In this document: positions 27,066 to 37,903 of the stretch, piece after piece
How the letters are laid out: each line of letters opens with the position of its first letter
Numbering within the stretch: the stretch's first letter is position 1
IMG/VR virus record: IMGVR_UViG_3300043399_000352
Span: 1-45,100 of that record
Reading direction: 5' to 3' (one strand)
From: a virus
DNA: 45,100 nucleotides
Translations under genes and position numbers: made by a program
Notes under the pieces: generated by a model
What the model saw: only the letters and a program-made list of their open reading frames with translations
Databases searched by the model: none
Told to the model about the DNA's origin: nothing

Positions 27066-27560
27066 ATGAGTCTCGAGCAAGCCCTGGCCGACAACACGGC
27101 CGCCATCCGCGAGCTGATCGCCGCGTTTACCAGCGGGCAGGTGGCTGCCCCAAAGCCTGCGCAGGCCCCCGCGCCTGCTGCTGGCCCAGCTACTGCCAAG
27201 GAAAGCGCTGCGCCCAAGAAGACGGCCGCCGACAAAGCCCCTGCTGCAGCATCTGCGGCCAGCGCTGCGCCAGCCTCGACTGCTGCGACCGCACCCCAGG
27301 AGACCGCCTCTGAGGGAAAGCCTGCTGCGGCGGCCTCCGCACCGGCAGCGCCCGCTGCATCGCCTGCCTCATCGAGCGCGCCGGTCGACTACCCGACGCT
27401 GCAGAAAGCCGTGTTCGCGCTGGCCGGCAAGTCGCGTGAAGCAGCTGCTGCAGTGGCCAGCTCGTTTGGCGTGAAGACGTTCAAGGAGCTGGGCCAGGAC
27501 CAGTGGGGCGCCGCGCTCGGCGCCGTGCAGGAAAAGCTCGCGGAGCTGGAGAACGTTTGA
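27066..27560 (+). CDS. Ala-rich protein with helical ends (164 aa)
   Basis: An N-terminal helix (MSLEQALADNTAAIRELIAAFTSG) leads into a ~75-residue disordered Ala/Pro/Lys linker and then a folded C-terminal part (YPTLQKAVFALAGKSREAAAAVASSFGVKTFKELG). Similar proteins lie just before DUF2800/DUF2815 genes in other phages. A role as a partner of the nuclease or ssDNA-binding protein is plausible but unproven. Its stop overlaps the next ATG as TGATG. AAAGGAAG precedes the ATG. Confidence 0.78.
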   Translation: MSLEQALADNTAAIRELIAAFTSGQVAAPKPAQAPAPAAGPATAKESAAPKKTAADKAPAAASAASAAPASTAATAPQETASEGKPAAAASAPAAPAASPASSSAPVDYPTLQKAVFALAGKSREAAAAVASSFGVKTFKELGQDQWGAALGAVQEKLAELENV

Positions 27561-28864
27561 TGACCGCCGCTCACTCGTACTGGTCCGCCAGCAAGTTCGA
27601 GTCGATCATGCTGTGCCCCGGCAAGATCGTGCTCGAAGACGGCGCGCCGGATGACACCAACGCCTACGCCGCCGAGGGCACGGCCGCGCACCAGGTGCTG
27701 ACCTGGGCGCTGCAGGAGGACCGCCCTGCCGGCGCCTACATCGGCCGCATGGTGCACTTGAACGCCGCCGGCAAGCCATGCGACCCAGACGCCGCCCAAT
27801 ATCGGTTCGAGGTCGACCAGGACATGGCCGACCACGTCCAGACGTGCATCGACTACTGCCGCGACCTGCAAGGCGACGACGGCGTGCTGTTCGCCGACAT
27901 CCGCGTGAACTACAGCACCTACCTGGGCGTCGAGCATGACACCGCGTGGGGCACTGCTGACGTGATCATCGCCCGCGGCAACGAGCTCATCGTGGTCGAC
28001 TTCAAGTACGGCCGCGGTGTCGAGGTCGACGCCGAGCGCAACCCGCAGATGTCGCTGTACGGTCTCGGCGCGCTGCAGGCCTACCAGGGCCTGGTGGCCG
28101 ACTTCGAGCGCGTGCGCCTGGCCATCAGCCAGCCCCGCGTGAAGGCTGCGCCCAGCGAGTGGGACTGCACCGTTGACGAGCTCGAGGCCTGGGGCCGGTC
28201 GACTGCGCGCAGCGCGGTGGCCACCTGCGCCAACGCATCCCGCGAAGCCGGCAACATCACCGACGGCTTATGGGCCGAGCTGTTCCTGTCGCCCGGCGAG
28301 AAGCAGTGCAAGTTCTGCAAGGCCAAAGCTACCTGCCCGGCGCTTCGCAACGAGGTGAGTTCCACCGCGTTCGACATTACGCCGGCCAGTCCGGACGATT
28401 TTGCCGAAGCCGTTTTGCCGTTCAGCGGCTACGACCACACCGACGTTGCGTGGCTGTCGGCCGCCCTGTCCCAAGTGGACCTGATCGAGGACTGGTGCAA
28501 GGCGATCCGCGCCGAGGCCGAGCGCCGCCTGCTGGCCGGTGACAAGGTTCCAGGCTTCAAGGTCGTCGCCGGCAAGAAAGGCGCGCGCCAGTGGGTCGAC
28601 GCCAAGGCCGCCGAGGAAGCGCTCAAGAGCTACCGCCTGAAGGTCGAGGAAATGTACGACCTCAAACTGATCAGCCCGACCAGCGCCGAGAAGCTGCACA
28701 AGGCCGGCGCGATCGGCCCGCGTCAATGGCCGAAGCTGCAGGGCCTGATCAGCCAGTCCGAGGGCAAGCCCCATGTGGCGCCCGAATCCGATTCACGCCC
28801 GGCCCTGGTGGTCACGCCGGTCGCTGATGATTTCACCGACGTGACCGCCGAAGACTTTGCATGA
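27560..28864 (+). CDS. DUF2800 family protein, RecB/Cas4-like nuclease (434 aa)
   Basis: Starts with SYWSASKFESIMLCPG, as expected for DUF2800. EGTAAHQVL supplies a conserved His. TADVIIARGNELIVVDFKYGRG matches the PD-(D/E)XK core (D...DxK). A C-terminal CKFCKAKATCP cluster plus the upstream Cys resembles the Fe-S site of Cas4/AddB-like nucleases. Likely a phage recombination or replication exonuclease acting with the DUF2815 ssDNA-binding protein. Activity is inferred from motifs. Confidence 0.85.
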   Translation: MTAAHSYWSASKFESIMLCPGKIVLEDGAPDDTNAYAAEGTAAHQVLTWALQEDRPAGAYIGRMVHLNAAGKPCDPDAAQYRFEVDQDMADHVQTCIDYCRDLQGDDGVLFADIRVNYSTYLGVEHDTAWGTADVIIARGNELIVVDFKYGRGVEVDAERNPQMSLYGLGALQAYQGLVADFERVRLAISQPRVKAAPSEWDCTVDELEAWGRSTARSAVATCANASREAGNITDGLWAELFLSPGEKQCKFCKAKATCPALRNEVSSTAFDITPASPDDFAEAVLPFSGYDHTDVAWLSAALSQVDLIEDWCKAIRAEAERRLLAGDKVPGFKVVAGKKGARQWVDAKAAEEALKSYRLKVEEMYDLKLISPTSAEKLHKAGAIGPRQWPKLQGLISQSEGKPHVAPESDSRPALVVTPVADDFTDVTAEDFA

Positions 28865-29118
28865 AAGAACTGACCATGACTGAAGCAACACAACGAGAGA
28901 TGACCTTCGGCGAGAAAGCCGTCGGCCTGACCTTCAACCCCAGCGGAGACCCAACGGTCGAAGCGATCAAACGTAAATGCGCGGACCTGATCGACGAGAT
29001 CCATGAGCTCCGCACGAACCAGCCAAACGGCGAGATCGCCCGCATGGCCTCAATCGCCATCACCGAGATCCAGACAGGCCAAATGTGGGCCGTCAAGGCC
29101 GCCACCTGGAAATTTTGA
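28861..29118 (+). CDS. Acb2/Tad1-like hairpin protein, candidate anti-CBASS/Thoeris sponge (85 aa)
   Basis: Two helices separated by a turn. The pattern AVGLTFNPSGD...VEAIKRKCADLIDEI...RMASIAITEIQTGQMWAVKAATW is what I recall for phage proteins annotated as Acb2/Tad1-domain. Characterised members sequester the cyclic nucleotides used by CBASS and Thoeris defences. The first ATG (28861) overlaps the previous stop as ATGA; an ATG at 28876 may be the real start. The family call is from memory and needs a profile search. Confidence 0.68.
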   Translation: MKELTMTEATQREMTFGEKAVGLTFNPSGDPTVEAIKRKCADLIDEIHELRTNQPNGEIARMASIAITEIQTGQMWAVKAATWKF

Positions 29119-29349: not shown

Positions 29350-29925
29350 ATGTCTACCAACCAACCCATCGGCCGCATCCTGCTCAAAGACGTGCGCCTT
29401 GCATTCCCCAACCTCTGGGAGCCCACCACCGTCAACGGTGAGGGCAAGCCCCGCTACAGCGCCACGCTGCTGATGGCGCAGGACCACCCGCAGGTCGAGG
29501 AGATCAAGCGCAAGATCGAGTCGATCGCCAAGGACAAGTGGCGCGACAAGGCCGCCTCGATCCTGGCCGGCCTGTACAAGACCGACAAGGTTGCGCTGCA
29601 CGACGGCGACACCAAGGCCCAGTACGACGGCTTCTCCGGCAACCTGTTCGTGGCCAGCGCCGCGCAGGAGAACGCCGCGCCGACCGTGGTTGACCGCGAT
29701 CGCTCGCCCCTGAGCCAGCGCAGCGGCCGGCCCTACGCCGGGTGCTACGTCAACGCGAGCCTGGAGTTCTGGGCCCAGGACAACGCCTACGGCAAGCGCA
29801 TCAACTGCACGCTGCGCGGCATCCAGTTCTACGCCGACGGCGACAGCTTTAGCGCTGGCCGCCCTGCGGACTCTGACGAGTTCGAGGACGTGAGCGCCGG
29901 CGCCGACGCGGAAGACTTCGCATAA
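29350..29925 (+). CDS. DUF2815 ssDNA-binding protein (191 aa)
   Basis: Begins PIGRILLKDVRLAFPNLWEP, the hallmark of DUF2815, an OB-fold family related in role to T7 gp2.5. GKPRYSATLLM and the acidic C-terminus (SDEFEDVSAGADAEDFA) fit a single-strand binder that recruits partners by its tail. It is paired with the DUF2800 protein as in many phages. The ribosome site is GAAAGGA. Confidence 0.88.
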   Translation: MSTNQPIGRILLKDVRLAFPNLWEPTTVNGEGKPRYSATLLMAQDHPQVEEIKRKIESIAKDKWRDKAASILAGLYKTDKVALHDGDTKAQYDGFSGNLFVASAAQENAAPTVVDRDRSPLSQRSGRPYAGCYVNASLEFWAQDNAYGKRINCTLRGIQFYADGDSFSAGRPADSDEFEDVSAGADAEDFA

Positions 29926-30074
29926 ACGGGGGGCCCTACCTCCTCCCCGGGTTGACCGCCCGGTAACAAAGCCAGATGGTTAATCGAGCTGCTCCCGTGG
30001 AAATGTTAGCAACTCGAGGTGCGCACACCGGTGGGCCCGTAACCATGAGCCGGCAATCTGGCGCAGGTTTGACA
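29926..30074 (+). ncRNA. Candidate structured RNA upstream of DNA polymerase
   Basis: There is no gene here. The RNA can form several exact stems. P0 pairs 29951-29957 with 29962-29967, with one bulge. P1 pairs GCCAGAT (29971-29977) with ATCTGGC (30056-30062). P2 pairs ATGGTTA (29976-29982) with TAACCAT (30040-30046), sharing two bases with P1. P3 pairs TCGAG-C-TGCT (29984-29993) with AGCA-A-CTCGA (30008-30017). P4 is GGTG-CGCA-CACC (30018-30029). P2, P3 and P4 meet in a junction. An intrinsic terminator follows directly. No known riboswitch class was recognised. Confidence 0.5.
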
Positions 30075-30097
30075 CCCCGGAAAGACGGGGCCTTTTT
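30075..30097 (+). terminator. Intrinsic terminator/attenuator before DNA polymerase
   Basis: CCCCG-GAAAGA-CGGGG followed by CC and five T. It stands 14 nt before the polymerase ATG, inside the early operon, so it must be read through or regulated for the polymerase and the ten genes behind it to be expressed. Confidence 0.8.
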
Positions 30098-30110
30098 ACG
30101 AAAGCACGCG

Positions 30111-32222
30111 ATGACGATACTTTGGTTTGACTGCGAAACGTACAGCGAATGCGACCTTAAGACCGCAGGCACGCACCGCTACGCCGAGCACGAGTCCACC
30201 GAGATCACGGTCGCCCAGTGGGCGATCGACGACGGCGAGCCGCAGGTCGTTGACTGTAGCCACATCGGCCCCCCTCCGGCGGACCACGACGACATCCCGC
30301 ACGAACTGTTCATGCTGCTGCACCGGGCGCGGTTCTACGACGACATCACCGTCGTCGCGCACAACAGCATGTTCGACCGCACCCTGCTGCGCCACTGCTG
30401 GGGCATCGACGTGCCGGTCGAACGCTGGCAGGACACGATGATCAAGGCCATGAGCCACGGCCTGCCTGGCTCGCTCGACAAGATCGGCCAGATCGTCGGC
30501 CTCGAGGACGACCAGGCCAAGGACAAGCGCGGGCGCGAGCTGATCCAGCTCTTTTGCAAACCGCGGCCCAAGGGCAGCAAGCTGCGCCGGGCCACCCGCG
30601 AGACGCACCCCAAGGAGTGGGCCGAGTTCCTCGAGTACAGCCGCCAGGACATCGTGGCCATGCGCGCCATCGACCAGCGCCTGCCGAGCTGGAACTACCG
30701 CGCCGGCCACGCCGAGCTCGAGCTCTGGCACCTGGACCAGCGCATCAACGACCGCGGCGTGGCCGTGGACGTGCAGCTCGCTGAGGCCGCTATCGACGCG
30801 GTGGCGCGCGAGCAAAAGCGCCTGAAGGCCGAAGTCGTCGAGGCCACCGACGGCCTGGTCACCAACGTAAGCCGGCGCGACGCGCTGCTTGCCTTCATCT
30901 GCGCGGAGTACGGCGTCGACCTGCCGGACCTCAAGGCCGACACGCTGCGCCGGCGCGTCGAGGACCCGGCCCTGCCCGAGGGCGTGCGCCTGCTGCTGGC
31001 CCTGCGACTCGAAGGCACGAAGACCAGCACCGCCAAGTACAAGGCCCTGGTCACCGCCACGAGCGCCGACGGCCGCCTGCGCAACACGCTACAGTTTGCC
31101 GGCGCCACCCGCACCGCTCGCTGGGCCGGCCGCATCTTCCAGCCGCAGAACATGCCAAGGCCTGACATGAAGCAGGCCGACATCGACGCAGGCATAGAGG
31201 CGCTCAAGGCCGGCTGCGCGGATCTGTTTTTCACCAACGTCATGCAGCTGACCGCCAACACCGTGCGCGGCTGCATCGTGGCGCCGCCCGGCAAGAAGCT
31301 CGTCATCGCCGACCTGTCCAACATCGAGGGCCGGGGCCTGGCTTTCCTGGCCGGCGAGCGCTGGAAGCTCAAGGCCTTCGCCGACTTCGACCAGGGCACC
31401 GGCGAGGACCTGTACAAGGTGGCGTACGGCCGCTCGTTCAACATCGACCCCAAGGACGCGGTCGGCCAGAAGCGCCAGATCGGCAAGGTGATGGAGCTGG
31501 GCCTGGGCTACGAGGGTGGCGTCGCCGCCTTCCTGACATTCGCCGCGGTCTACAACATGGACCTCGAGGAGCTGGCTAAGGCGGTCTGGGACACGGCCTC
31601 ACGCGAGGCGCTCGAGAACGCGCTCGGCATGTGGAAGTGGGCCACCGAGAAGAAGCGCACGCTGGGCCTGAGCCAGCAGGTCTACGTCGCCTGCGAGGTG
31701 CTCAAGCGCGCTTGGCGCGATGCGCACCCCAACACCACCGCACTGTGGGCCGCAGCTGGCGACAGTGTGCGAGCTGCGATCGCCAACCCCGGCCAGTCGT
31801 TTGCGATCGGCCCGCACCTGAAAGCCCGCGTCGACGGCAAGTGGCTGCGCATCCGGCTGCCCAGCGGCCGCTACCTCTGCTACATCAACCCGGCCGTCGA
31901 CGAGGACGGCAGCATCACCTACTTCGGCGTGAACCAGTACACGCGCCAGTGGGGACGCATCAAAACCTACGGCGGCAAGCTGATCGAGAACGCGACCCAG
32001 GCCTTCGCTCGCGACATCCTGGGTCACAACATGCCAGCCATTGAGCGCGAAGGGTTCGAGATCGTGCTGTCGGTGCACGACGAACTGCTCACCGAAACCC
32101 CCGACGAGCCAGGCTACAGCGTCGATCGGCTCGCCGGGATGATGGCCACCGCACCAGCCTGGGCGCGTGGCATTCCGCTGGCCGCGGCCGGCTTTGAGAC
32201 AACCCGCTACAGAAAGGACTGA
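30111..32222 (+). CDS. Family A DNA polymerase with 3'-5' exonuclease (703 aa)
   Basis: The start MTILWFDCETYSE places the exonuclease motif I acids at D7 and E9. Motif A is KLVIADLSNIEGRGL (D401). Motif B lies around KRQIGKVMELGLGYEGG (K454). Motif C is VLSVHDELL (H656-D657-E658). It lacks a 5' nuclease domain, as T7-type phage enzymes do. An in-frame start at 29976 would add 45 residues translated from the structured RNA and terminator, so the ATG at 30111 is preferred. It is the replicative enzyme. Confidence 0.93.
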   Translation: MTILWFDCETYSECDLKTAGTHRYAEHESTEITVAQWAIDDGEPQVVDCSHIGPPPADHDDIPHELFMLLHRARFYDDITVVAHNSMFDRTLLRHCWGIDVPVERWQDTMIKAMSHGLPGSLDKIGQIVGLEDDQAKDKRGRELIQLFCKPRPKGSKLRRATRETHPKEWAEFLEYSRQDIVAMRAIDQRLPSWNYRAGHAELELWHLDQRINDRGVAVDVQLAEAAIDAVAREQKRLKAEVVEATDGLVTNVSRRDALLAFICAEYGVDLPDLKADTLRRRVEDPALPEGVRLLLALRLEGTKTSTAKYKALVTATSADGRLRNTLQFAGATRTARWAGRIFQPQNMPRPDMKQADIDAGIEALKAGCADLFFTNVMQLTANTVRGCIVAPPGKKLVIADLSNIEGRGLAFLAGERWKLKAFADFDQGTGEDLYKVAYGRSFNIDPKDAVGQKRQIGKVMELGLGYEGGVAAFLTFAAVYNMDLEELAKAVWDTASREALENALGMWKWATEKKRTLGLSQQVYVACEVLKRAWRDAHPNTTALWAAAGDSVRAAIANPGQSFAIGPHLKARVDGKWLRIRLPSGRYLCYINPAVDEDGSITYFGVNQYTRQWGRIKTYGGKLIENATQAFARDILGHNMPAIEREGFEIVLSVHDELLTETPDEPGYSVDRLAGMMATAPAWARGIPLAAAGFETTRYRKD

Positions 32223-36881: not shown

Positions 36882-37903
36882 TTACTCCCTTTCGACGCGC
36901 CGCGTGAGCGCAGGAATGTCAGGTAATCAGCGGCGGCCTCCACGTCCCAGAAAGGCTTGACTCGCTCAGCCGCTATTTTCTTGGACGGGTCGATGACAAC
37001 GGACACGCCGGGCGCCAGGCGCTTCGGCCGGAAGCCTTTCTCCTTGGCGAAGTCGTCGATCACCTTGTAGCCCGACAGGCGGAAGAACCAGTGCACGTCA
37101 CCCTCGATCGACGGCTCGACGCGGGCCTCGTCGACGTGGGTGTGGCCGGCCACCAGGATGTGGTCCTTGTGCCCGAACAGCAGCTCGCGCTTCATGCCGT
37201 GGGTGTCCGAGTATTGGCTGCGCCCTGGGAAGTCGTGGCGGGCGTGGATGCGGATCTGCTCACCGCCCGGGAAGTTGAGCGCCAGCCTGGCGCCGTGCGC
37301 CTGCAACGGCCCGCTCGGGCCCTGCTTGACGATAAAGTTCAGCAGGTCCATGCCCTTTTCCCAGCAGTCGTGATTGCCACCCACGACAAACAGGTTGGGC
37401 GCCAGGCCCAGCATCCACTCGGTCAGGCGCAGGCCGTCGCGAAAGGTGGTGCCCTGGTTCGCGTACAGCGCCTTCAGGCGCCCGACCCAGTTGTTGGTCA
37501 GGTCACCCACATGCCCCGCGAAAAACGCCTTGGTGCGCCCGACCGTGGTCAGGTCGTGCTCGAGCTGGGCGATGTCGCAGTGGTCGTCATCGACGTGCGG
37601 GTCGCCCACCAGGAACAGGCCGATCGGGCCGGGGGTCTTGACCTGCACGGGGATCAACTTGGCCCAGGCCTCGTAGGCGTTGGCACGCGCCATGCCGGCT
37701 TTCTTGCGGGCGATCAGCGCCTCCAGCGGCTCGTTGGGGTCGGGCGCCGGGGAGACATTAACCTCCTCGGAGAATGGCTGCATGCGTCCTGCCCAGTACC
37801 GCACCGTCGTGCGCGGTACGCCGAGCTCGCGTGCGATTGCGTGGTGAGCGTCACCGCGCCTGATCTTGTCCTCGACCACGGCGCGCAGTTTCTTTCGGTC
37901 CAT
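36878..37903 (-). CDS. HTH plus calcineurin-like metallophosphoesterase (341 aa)
   Basis: Residues 1-40 form a HTH (AHHAIARELGVPRTTVRYWAGR). The catalytic domain carries the metal ligands in order: GDPHVD (D101, H103), GHVGDLTN (D134), GGNHDCWE (N177, H178), IHARHDFPG and LVAGHTHVD. A phosphodiesterase or nuclease acting on nucleic acid or nucleotides is likely. Phages often carry such HTH-phosphoesterase fusions in late regions; the substrate is unknown. ATG overlaps the GNAT stop by 1 nt. Confidence 0.87.
   Translation of the reverse strand: MDRKKLRAVVEDKIRRGDAHHAIARELGVPRTTVRYWAGRMQPFSEEVNVSPAPDPNEPLEALIARKKAGMARANAYEAWAKLIPVQVKTPGPIGLFLVGDPHVDDDHCDIAQLEHDLTTVGRTKAFFAGHVGDLTNNWVGRLKALYANQGTTFRDGLRLTEWMLGLAPNLFVVGGNHDCWEKGMDLLNFIVKQGPSGPLQAHGARLALNFPGGEQIRIHARHDFPGRSQYSDTHGMKRELLFGHKDHILVAGHTHVDEARVEPSIEGDVHWFFRLSGYKVIDDFAKEKGFRPKRLAPGVSVVIDPSKKIAAERVKPFWDVEAAADYLTFLRSRGASKGSK

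Follow-up and report, generated by a model that had tools for sequence, protein, structure and literature searches.

Control of replication genes by structured leader RNAs is, to our knowledge, known from only a few cases in phages. The single-stranded-DNA-binding protein (SSB) of T4, gp32, represses via a pseudoknot of its own mRNA, and the DUF2815 and DUF2800 RNA motifs are candidate RNAs that have been described for Firmicutes. The stretch of DNA analysed here (45,100 nt, hereafter the window) comes from a virus akin to Bordetella phage BPP-1 (BPP-1-like), and in it 185 nt separate an SSB gene, whose Pfam domain Enc34_ssDNA-bd we take to be the former DUF2815, from the gene of a family-A DNA polymerase; the gene for a DUF2800 protein starts at 27503. 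Just upstream in the same operon, a small gene at 28861-29115 encodes a Pfam Acb2/Tad1 hairpin domain (E 3.7e-12), a family of sponges of anti-phage defence signals (CBASS, Thoeris).

A first-pass annotation had placed a structured RNA, ending in a hairpin and five T residues, at 29926-30110. Both the region and the hairpin with its T5 are present there, the last T being position 30097 and the polymerase ATG 30111, and the following features can be assigned in and around it.

29350..29925, + strand: SSB gene (Pfam Enc34_ssDNA-bd, E 1.4e-37)
29926..30069, + strand: body of the leader RNA, P1-P7 with four pseudoknots (covariance model match of 74.6 bits at 29922-30072; covariation)
29926..29930, + strand: 5' strand of P5, ACGGG, forming a pseudoknot with CCCGT (29994-29998) in the P4 loop; 4/5 pairs vary on both sides
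29931..29936, + strand: 5' strand of P1, GGGCCC, partner 30033-30038; 7/7 pairs vary on both sides
29947..29963, + strand: P2 hairpin, 29947-29951 with 29959-29963; 6/6 pairs vary on both sides
~29954-29957, + strand: 5' strand of P6, GACC, within the P2 loop
29971..29977, + strand: 5' strand of P3, GCCAGAT, partner ATCTGGC at 30056-30062, crossing P1; 8/9 pairs vary on both sides
29985..30016, + strand: P4 hairpin, 29985-29988 with 30013-30016, extendable inward with one mismatch and holding the 3' strand of P5 in its loop; 8/8 pairs vary on both sides
30027..30054, + strand: P7, 30027-30031 with 30050-30054, its loop containing the 3' strand of P1 (30033-30038); 5/5 pairs vary on both sides
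30066..30069, + strand: 3' strand of P6, GGTT, partner of GACC in the P2 loop, placed by eye; family-wide, 5/6 pairs vary on both sides
30070..30090, + strand: H module, TGACACCCCGGAAAGACGGGG, a UGACA linker plus a hairpin with a GAAAGA loop (MFE -10.5 kcal/mol; stem covaries)
30093..30097, + strand: U5 run after H, terminator-like in a pattern scan and, with H, a possible intrinsic terminator
30100..30104, + strand: GAAAG, probably a weak ribosome-binding site for the polymerase, similarly placed in many relatives
30111..32222, + strand: family-A DNA polymerase gene, ATG at 30111; the tblastn alignments of most relatives start at residue 1

Related loci were pulled from viral contigs via the polymerase and the SSB, and 43 distinct forms of the same gap were read, many of which carry an RNA of common plan. 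Members were chosen partly by eye, near-identical loci were collapsed by eye, and pair counts ignore kinship (the set of 48 members includes near relatives, e.g., L008/L009 and L060/L490). Judged by this comparison, the RNA at 29926-30069 belongs to a family without Rfam match, whose strand order, 5a-1a-P2 (loop with 6a)-3a-P4 (loop with 5b)-7a-1b-7b-3b-6b, yields seven helices and four pseudoknots. The simple multi-branched junction that the first-pass annotation had built from its stems P1 to P4 gives way to this more elaborate, pseudoknotted fold. A pairing of the P2 loop with the segment later seen as P7, considered for the window-type sequences, was dropped on reading the relatives. In the window, P6 is weak, with four pairs including one G-U (the pairing is GACC/GGTC in L003).

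Folding energy alone is uninformative for the window (z = -1.49; 17/200 shuffles fold equally well): the single-sequence minimum-energy structure contains P1, P2, P4, and the 3' hairpin, misses P3, P5, P6, and P7, and adds helices that receive no support from relatives. A fixed-topology search, in which the order and short gaps were set, solved 20/23 members of the B/C type and 19/21 later-found members (L486 and L508 being the exceptions among the latter), each above all 40 of its dinucleotide shuffles. Folds were placed by hand in L065, L045, and L036 (B/C type), in L029, and in the four H-bearing sequences (the window, L003, L015, and L030); automatic solutions of these last four were equalled or exceeded by 2, 0, 5, and 0 of 40 shuffles, respectively, and that of L003 differs from the hand placing. 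The weaker score of the window (2/40) is due to the search not requiring P6 in H-bearing sequences.

The structure is accepted as real because of comparative evidence, not folding energy. In a MAFFT alignment made from sequence alone (25 of the 27 first-set sequences, with L009 and L036 left out), 39/46 pairs vary on both sides, the covariation score is 0.552 (versus 0.205 when shuffled and ≤0.164 when slid; 0/500 shuffles reach it), and 85.3% of the cells are paired (versus 64.5% shuffled and ≤49.6% slid). P1, P5, and P6, although left out of the covariance model, covary on the alignment it produces, at a score of 0.426 versus ≤0.113 when slid. With 22 members added (47 in all), 43/46 pairs vary on both sides, at a score of 0.573 versus ≤0.151 slid. 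The pseudoknot strands change in concert: P5 occurs as GCGGG/CCCGC, GTGGG/CCCAC, GCAGG/CCTGC, and GCAGC/GCTGC; P6 as CACCC/GGGTG, TGACCC/GGGTCA, CACTC/GAGTG, and GACCGGG/CCCGGTC; and P7 as CCAAC/GTTGG and CTCAG/CTGAG. Compensatory changes in the paired columns thereby exceed both shuffled and slid controls, and on these alignments the region is a structured RNA under selection. The earlier proposal of a structured RNA within this replication operon holds: the paired columns, whose lack of conservation in homologues had been named beforehand as a refuting outcome, are conserved and covary above controls.

Conservation outside the helices is sparse: seven unpaired columns, six A and one G, are conserved at ≥80% (44/47 rows mapped), and they lie in the linkers that follow P2 and P1 and in the one preceding P6. 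The term “riboswitch architecture” in the first-pass annotation is kept as no more than a possible reading, given only about seven such positions and no known ligand. An N-terminally extended polymerase, translated through the region from 29976, had also been considered. The polymerase frame is open back to that ATG, and in the nearest relatives, L003 and L004, an in-frame stop lies 72 nt upstream of the polymerase ATG with no ATG or GTG between; a start at 29976 is not supported by these sequences.

Searches with Rfam covariance models at curated thresholds gave no matches in the window or in the loci of 19 relatives, in line with the earlier view that the RNA falls in no nameable class; at E values of up to 10, the window matched only CcsR1 (E 3.4, chance) and L060 matched nothing. 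An earlier description of the leader RNA was looked for in the literature, mostly outside subscription papers, and none was found. Compact pseudoknotted folds are typical of ribozymes, and the place of the RNA in a replication module would also suit an element that acts as DNA, for example an origin of replication; both a self-cleaving or splicing RNA and an origin are nevertheless very improbable, as there is no Rfam ribozyme or intron match and no interrupted gene, and the G-U combinations among the kept pairs, together with the fixed orientation, favour an RNA over a DNA element.

The distribution of the family was followed with a covariance model built from 25 members without P1, P5, and P6, the E values of which are rough. 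The RNA was found in 32/60 SSB and polymerase loci (E ≤0.00013, training loci among them) and, in the same gap and on the same strand, in 28/53 new polymerase loci (E ≤1.8e-5; L514 additionally at 0.03). Among 41 records searched, 27 hold one copy each, 14 hold none, and none has the RNA outside the SSB-polymerase gap. Among 99 loci picked for the H motif, the model matched two (L159 and L208), the latter on a contig titled Uliginosibacterium gangwonense; among 399 genomes of the order of the L208 genome, it again matched two, that genome itself and L538, where the RNA once more lies between an SSB (45% identical to that of the window) and a polymerase (40%), over the aligned parts. A loose pattern for the P2 loop returned mostly chance sites, and the model found the RNA at E <0.3 in 0/92 such loci. 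When one member was compared by BLASTN with a collection of 50,697 phage records, none matched, cultured phages included. A second match in the window, at 36926-36992, is weak (11.7 bits, E 0.43) and probably due to chance.

Relative to its neighbours, the RNA starts ≤4 nt from the SSB stop codon in 18/30 rows, and a start codon on the coding strand follows its last helix, P6, by 6-25 nt in 23/48 members. (The ORF finder ignored TTG, and several listed GTG starts, at -3, 4, 17, and 36, are probably spurious.) In 28/48, a T-run follows at ≤14 nt, counted from the last helix or, in H-bearing members, from H. Six of the 48 (L027, L500, L501, L503, L506, and L508) have no T-run and a polymerase ATG 6-11 nt past the end of the fold; in L523, likewise lacking a T-run, a likely TTG start, identified by eye, comes 9 nt after the fold. 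In 13/48 members, there is no T-run and no start codon at ≤11 nt. The gene after the RNA varies, being the polymerase in many members and HNH-like genes or others elsewhere; HNH-like genes beginning M-x-x-WKD-x-PGYEGRYQ follow the RNA in L013, L045, and L498. By position, the RNA is thus placed as a leader, in fixed orientation and just upstream of coding starts, with a palindrome intervening in many other members.

Putative HNH-like genes occur in the SSB-polymerase gap of L013, L045, L046, L060, L069, L208, L498, and L527 as frames starting near WKDIPGYEGRYQ, often directly after the RNA. The palindromes between RNA and gene are long in many members, and one of their arms supplies the T-run. 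Long palindromes that read GGTGAGGG...CCCTCACC, variable in their interior, occur in the gap of L008, L012, L043, L060, and others, as well as after H in L100, L114, L182, and L185; they lie on either side of the RNA, often overlap a hairpin resembling a terminator (AGCCCT..AGGGCTGTTTGG), and look like a recurring small element. ARAGORN, run on 12 loci for tRNA-like palindromes, returned none.

Since the RNA lies as near the SSB stop as any start, a role in the 3' untranslated region also fits, i.e., a passive stabiliser and partial terminator of the SSB message that responds to no signal. Gaps of the same operon that are without the RNA often carry a plain terminator-like hairpin in its stead (9/14 in our own scan), which is compatible with such a role and also with a leader. 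We nevertheless regard the passive role as improbable: a plain hairpin would suffice for it, conserved pseudoknots and nearly invariant unpaired adenines exceed what it needs, and the seven members described above have a start codon close behind the fold and no T-run.

Attached to the 3' end of the RNA in the window is the H module, which has a distribution of its own. What the first-pass annotation called the terminator (30070-30097) consists of TGACACCCCGGAAAGACGGGG, then CC, then T5, and the exact 21-mer TGACACCCCGGAAAGACGGGG is present in at least 120 stretches of viral contigs and also in 15 contigs from genomes, with titles that include Flavobacteriaceae, Muribaculaceae, Clostridiales, Kamptonema, and Pacearchaeota; several of these genome contigs are bins and may hold phage contigs. 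When the stem was left partly free, all three free pairs were complementary at 65/98 distinct sites, in 14 different stems, where about 2/98 would be expected by chance (our own arithmetic). When the loop was left free, the 120 stretches listed comprised 92 with the already-known GAAAGA (120 minus 28 new loci), with GAGAGA in 11 and GACAGA in 2. In 16 H loci searched with Rfam, no match fell on the H site.

As a terminator, H presents two aspects. TTTT within 14 nt follows only 20/151 non-redundant H sites (background 4.7%), and H is therefore not a terminator in general. The window-type members that bear H (4/48) all have a T-run after it, so H may have been taken up as a terminator here. In the window, a stem of five GC pairs is followed after 2 nt by U5, the shape of an intrinsic terminator; a terminator pattern scan over 6.7 kb gave 4 sites versus 6.4 in shuffles, which is not above chance. 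Going by this shape, H with U5 can serve as a terminator in the window; the earlier terminator call is upheld in its hairpin and U5, and its inclusion in the RNA proper is replaced by a separate, widespread phage module.

Among 227 H sites examined, 27 lie ≤400 nt from a tRNA predicted by ARAGORN, all on the same strand, and of the 18 with the tRNA downstream, 13 are at exactly 5-7 nt. These 13 precede phage tRNAs in L127, L138, L151, L156, L235, L251, and L256 and further in L259, L264, L267, L277, L297, and L316. Other structured RNA modules of phages likewise carry H at their ends. Arrays of further conserved RNA modules lie downstream of H in L088, L155, L164, L191, L192, and L514 (in L514, inside the SSB-polymerase gap) and contain CYAACACGCATGNGGATTG...CAGTCNCCAGYCGTGTTRG stems, GTGAATGCGCAGGCTGATGCGC...GCCGGAGATCAGCACCGGCCACYAACA, whose loops could kiss, and GAAAGCGGATGCTG...CAGACGCAGCGAGTAG; a reading of these modules as integron attC-like was discarded, the core sites not fitting the consensus. 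Tandem H-like hairpins (GAC..GGGAAAGACC..) stand right before a Shine-Dalgarno-like GGAGG and a start codon in L218, L220, L230, L275, and L291, and the H-bearing phage contig L085 has an Rfam match to Burkholderiales-2 RNA at 2490-2565. Theta (HDV-like) ribozymes, which adjoin phage tRNAs (cf. PMC10879173), were weighed as an identity for H and set aside, no shared anatomy being shown, and a likeness of GGAAAGAC to 23S rRNA (PMC12887398, PMC7449152) is probably chance because the loop also occurs as GAGAGA and GACAGA. Overall, the H module points to an unnamed RNA signal in phages of several bacterial phyla that is partly tied to tRNA genes.

These properties of H bear on whether the RNA might act as a free-standing noncoding RNA, with the SSB transcript cut or ending after it and the body plus H forming a stable, trans-acting small RNA whose 3' end H would mark. 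Two further settings of H, module ends and sites 5-7 nt upstream of some tRNAs, are consistent with this, as are the single copy per record and the finding that the 5-mer before UGAC has an upstream complement at 45/151 non-redundant sites, versus 9-28 at other offsets. We consider it unlikely all the same, as most members are without H, the short leader distance to varied downstream genes is kept, and no copy lies outside the SSB-polymerase gap in the records searched.

With moderate confidence, we favour reading the RNA as a cis-regulatory leader of the next gene, usually that of the phage DNA polymerase, and most likely as a switch on that gene. Support comes from the fold and its covariation, the location in the SSB-polymerase gap on the coding strand, the single copy per record, and the frequency of ordinary terminator-like hairpins where the RNA is missing; the gating of a downstream gene proposed at first pass is accordingly kept as the probable reading, the RNA being in leader position before the next gene. 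Counting against it are the 13/48 members with neither T-run nor near start, the T-runs borne by palindromes, the 14/41 records without the RNA, and, in the window, the weak P6 and a U-run that is short and begins 2 nt after the H stem.

Under the cis-regulatory reading, the SSB-polymerase operon would be transcribed and the RNA past the SSB stop would fold into a compact body (P1, P2, P4, P5, and P7), after which the 3' strands would close P3 and the loop-to-3'-end pseudoknot P6, if folding proceeds co-transcriptionally in this order. The completed fold would lower expression of the next gene, since P6 (in the window, P6 and H) directly precedes the U-run or start codon: by premature termination in members with a U-run and by blocking of the start site in those whose start codon is 6-11 nt away. 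As with other leader RNAs, we infer that a single RNA body would serve two types of output. In the window, the output would be attenuation at H-U5, and hence less polymerase than SSB unless a signal or bound protein prevents the fold from closing; candidate triggers are the SSB or polymerase protein, a metabolite, or none.

Should the trigger be the SSB or the polymerase, the RNA would be a protein-binding operator through which one of them represses polymerase synthesis, a version of the leader explanation with a named trigger. Its site exactly between the two genes and its constant shape despite varied sequence would suit such binding, as with T4 gp32. We assign this version a low probability: HNH and other genes replace the polymerase immediately downstream in several members, and 14/41 records, all picked via SSB, polymerase, or the H motif, are without the RNA. 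A broader proposal, which we advance tentatively as a possibility short of even chances, is that of a new signal-responsive leader class with a previously undescribed quadruple-pseudoknot fold, which would sense the state of replication (a replication protein or nucleotide) and set polymerase synthesis by termination or start-site blocking.

A compact, well-supported family of pseudoknotted RNAs, kept by dozens of related phages and with two types of 3' context, would make an RNA switch in replication-gene control open to testing, and its fold, absent from Rfam, is a target for structural work. Among known systems, the T4 gene 32 operator is likewise pseudoknotted and linked to the SSB and polymerase genes of a phage, but it has a single pseudoknot and lies upstream of the SSB gene, whereas the leader RNA has four and lies downstream. 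The DUF2815 and DUF2800 RNA motifs belong to operons with the same two protein families; the leader RNA differs in following, not preceding, the SSB gene and in having no Rfam match. Intrinsic terminators share the shape of H plus U5 in the window but not the conserved GANAGA loop and UGACA flank of H, nor its general scarcity of T-runs. Finally, the leader RNA is set apart from riboswitch and attenuator leaders by its few conserved unpaired bases, no known ligand, a fold not in Rfam, and its place in a phage replication operon, yet it has in common with them a compact pseudoknotted body before a U-run or start codon and a variety of downstream genes.
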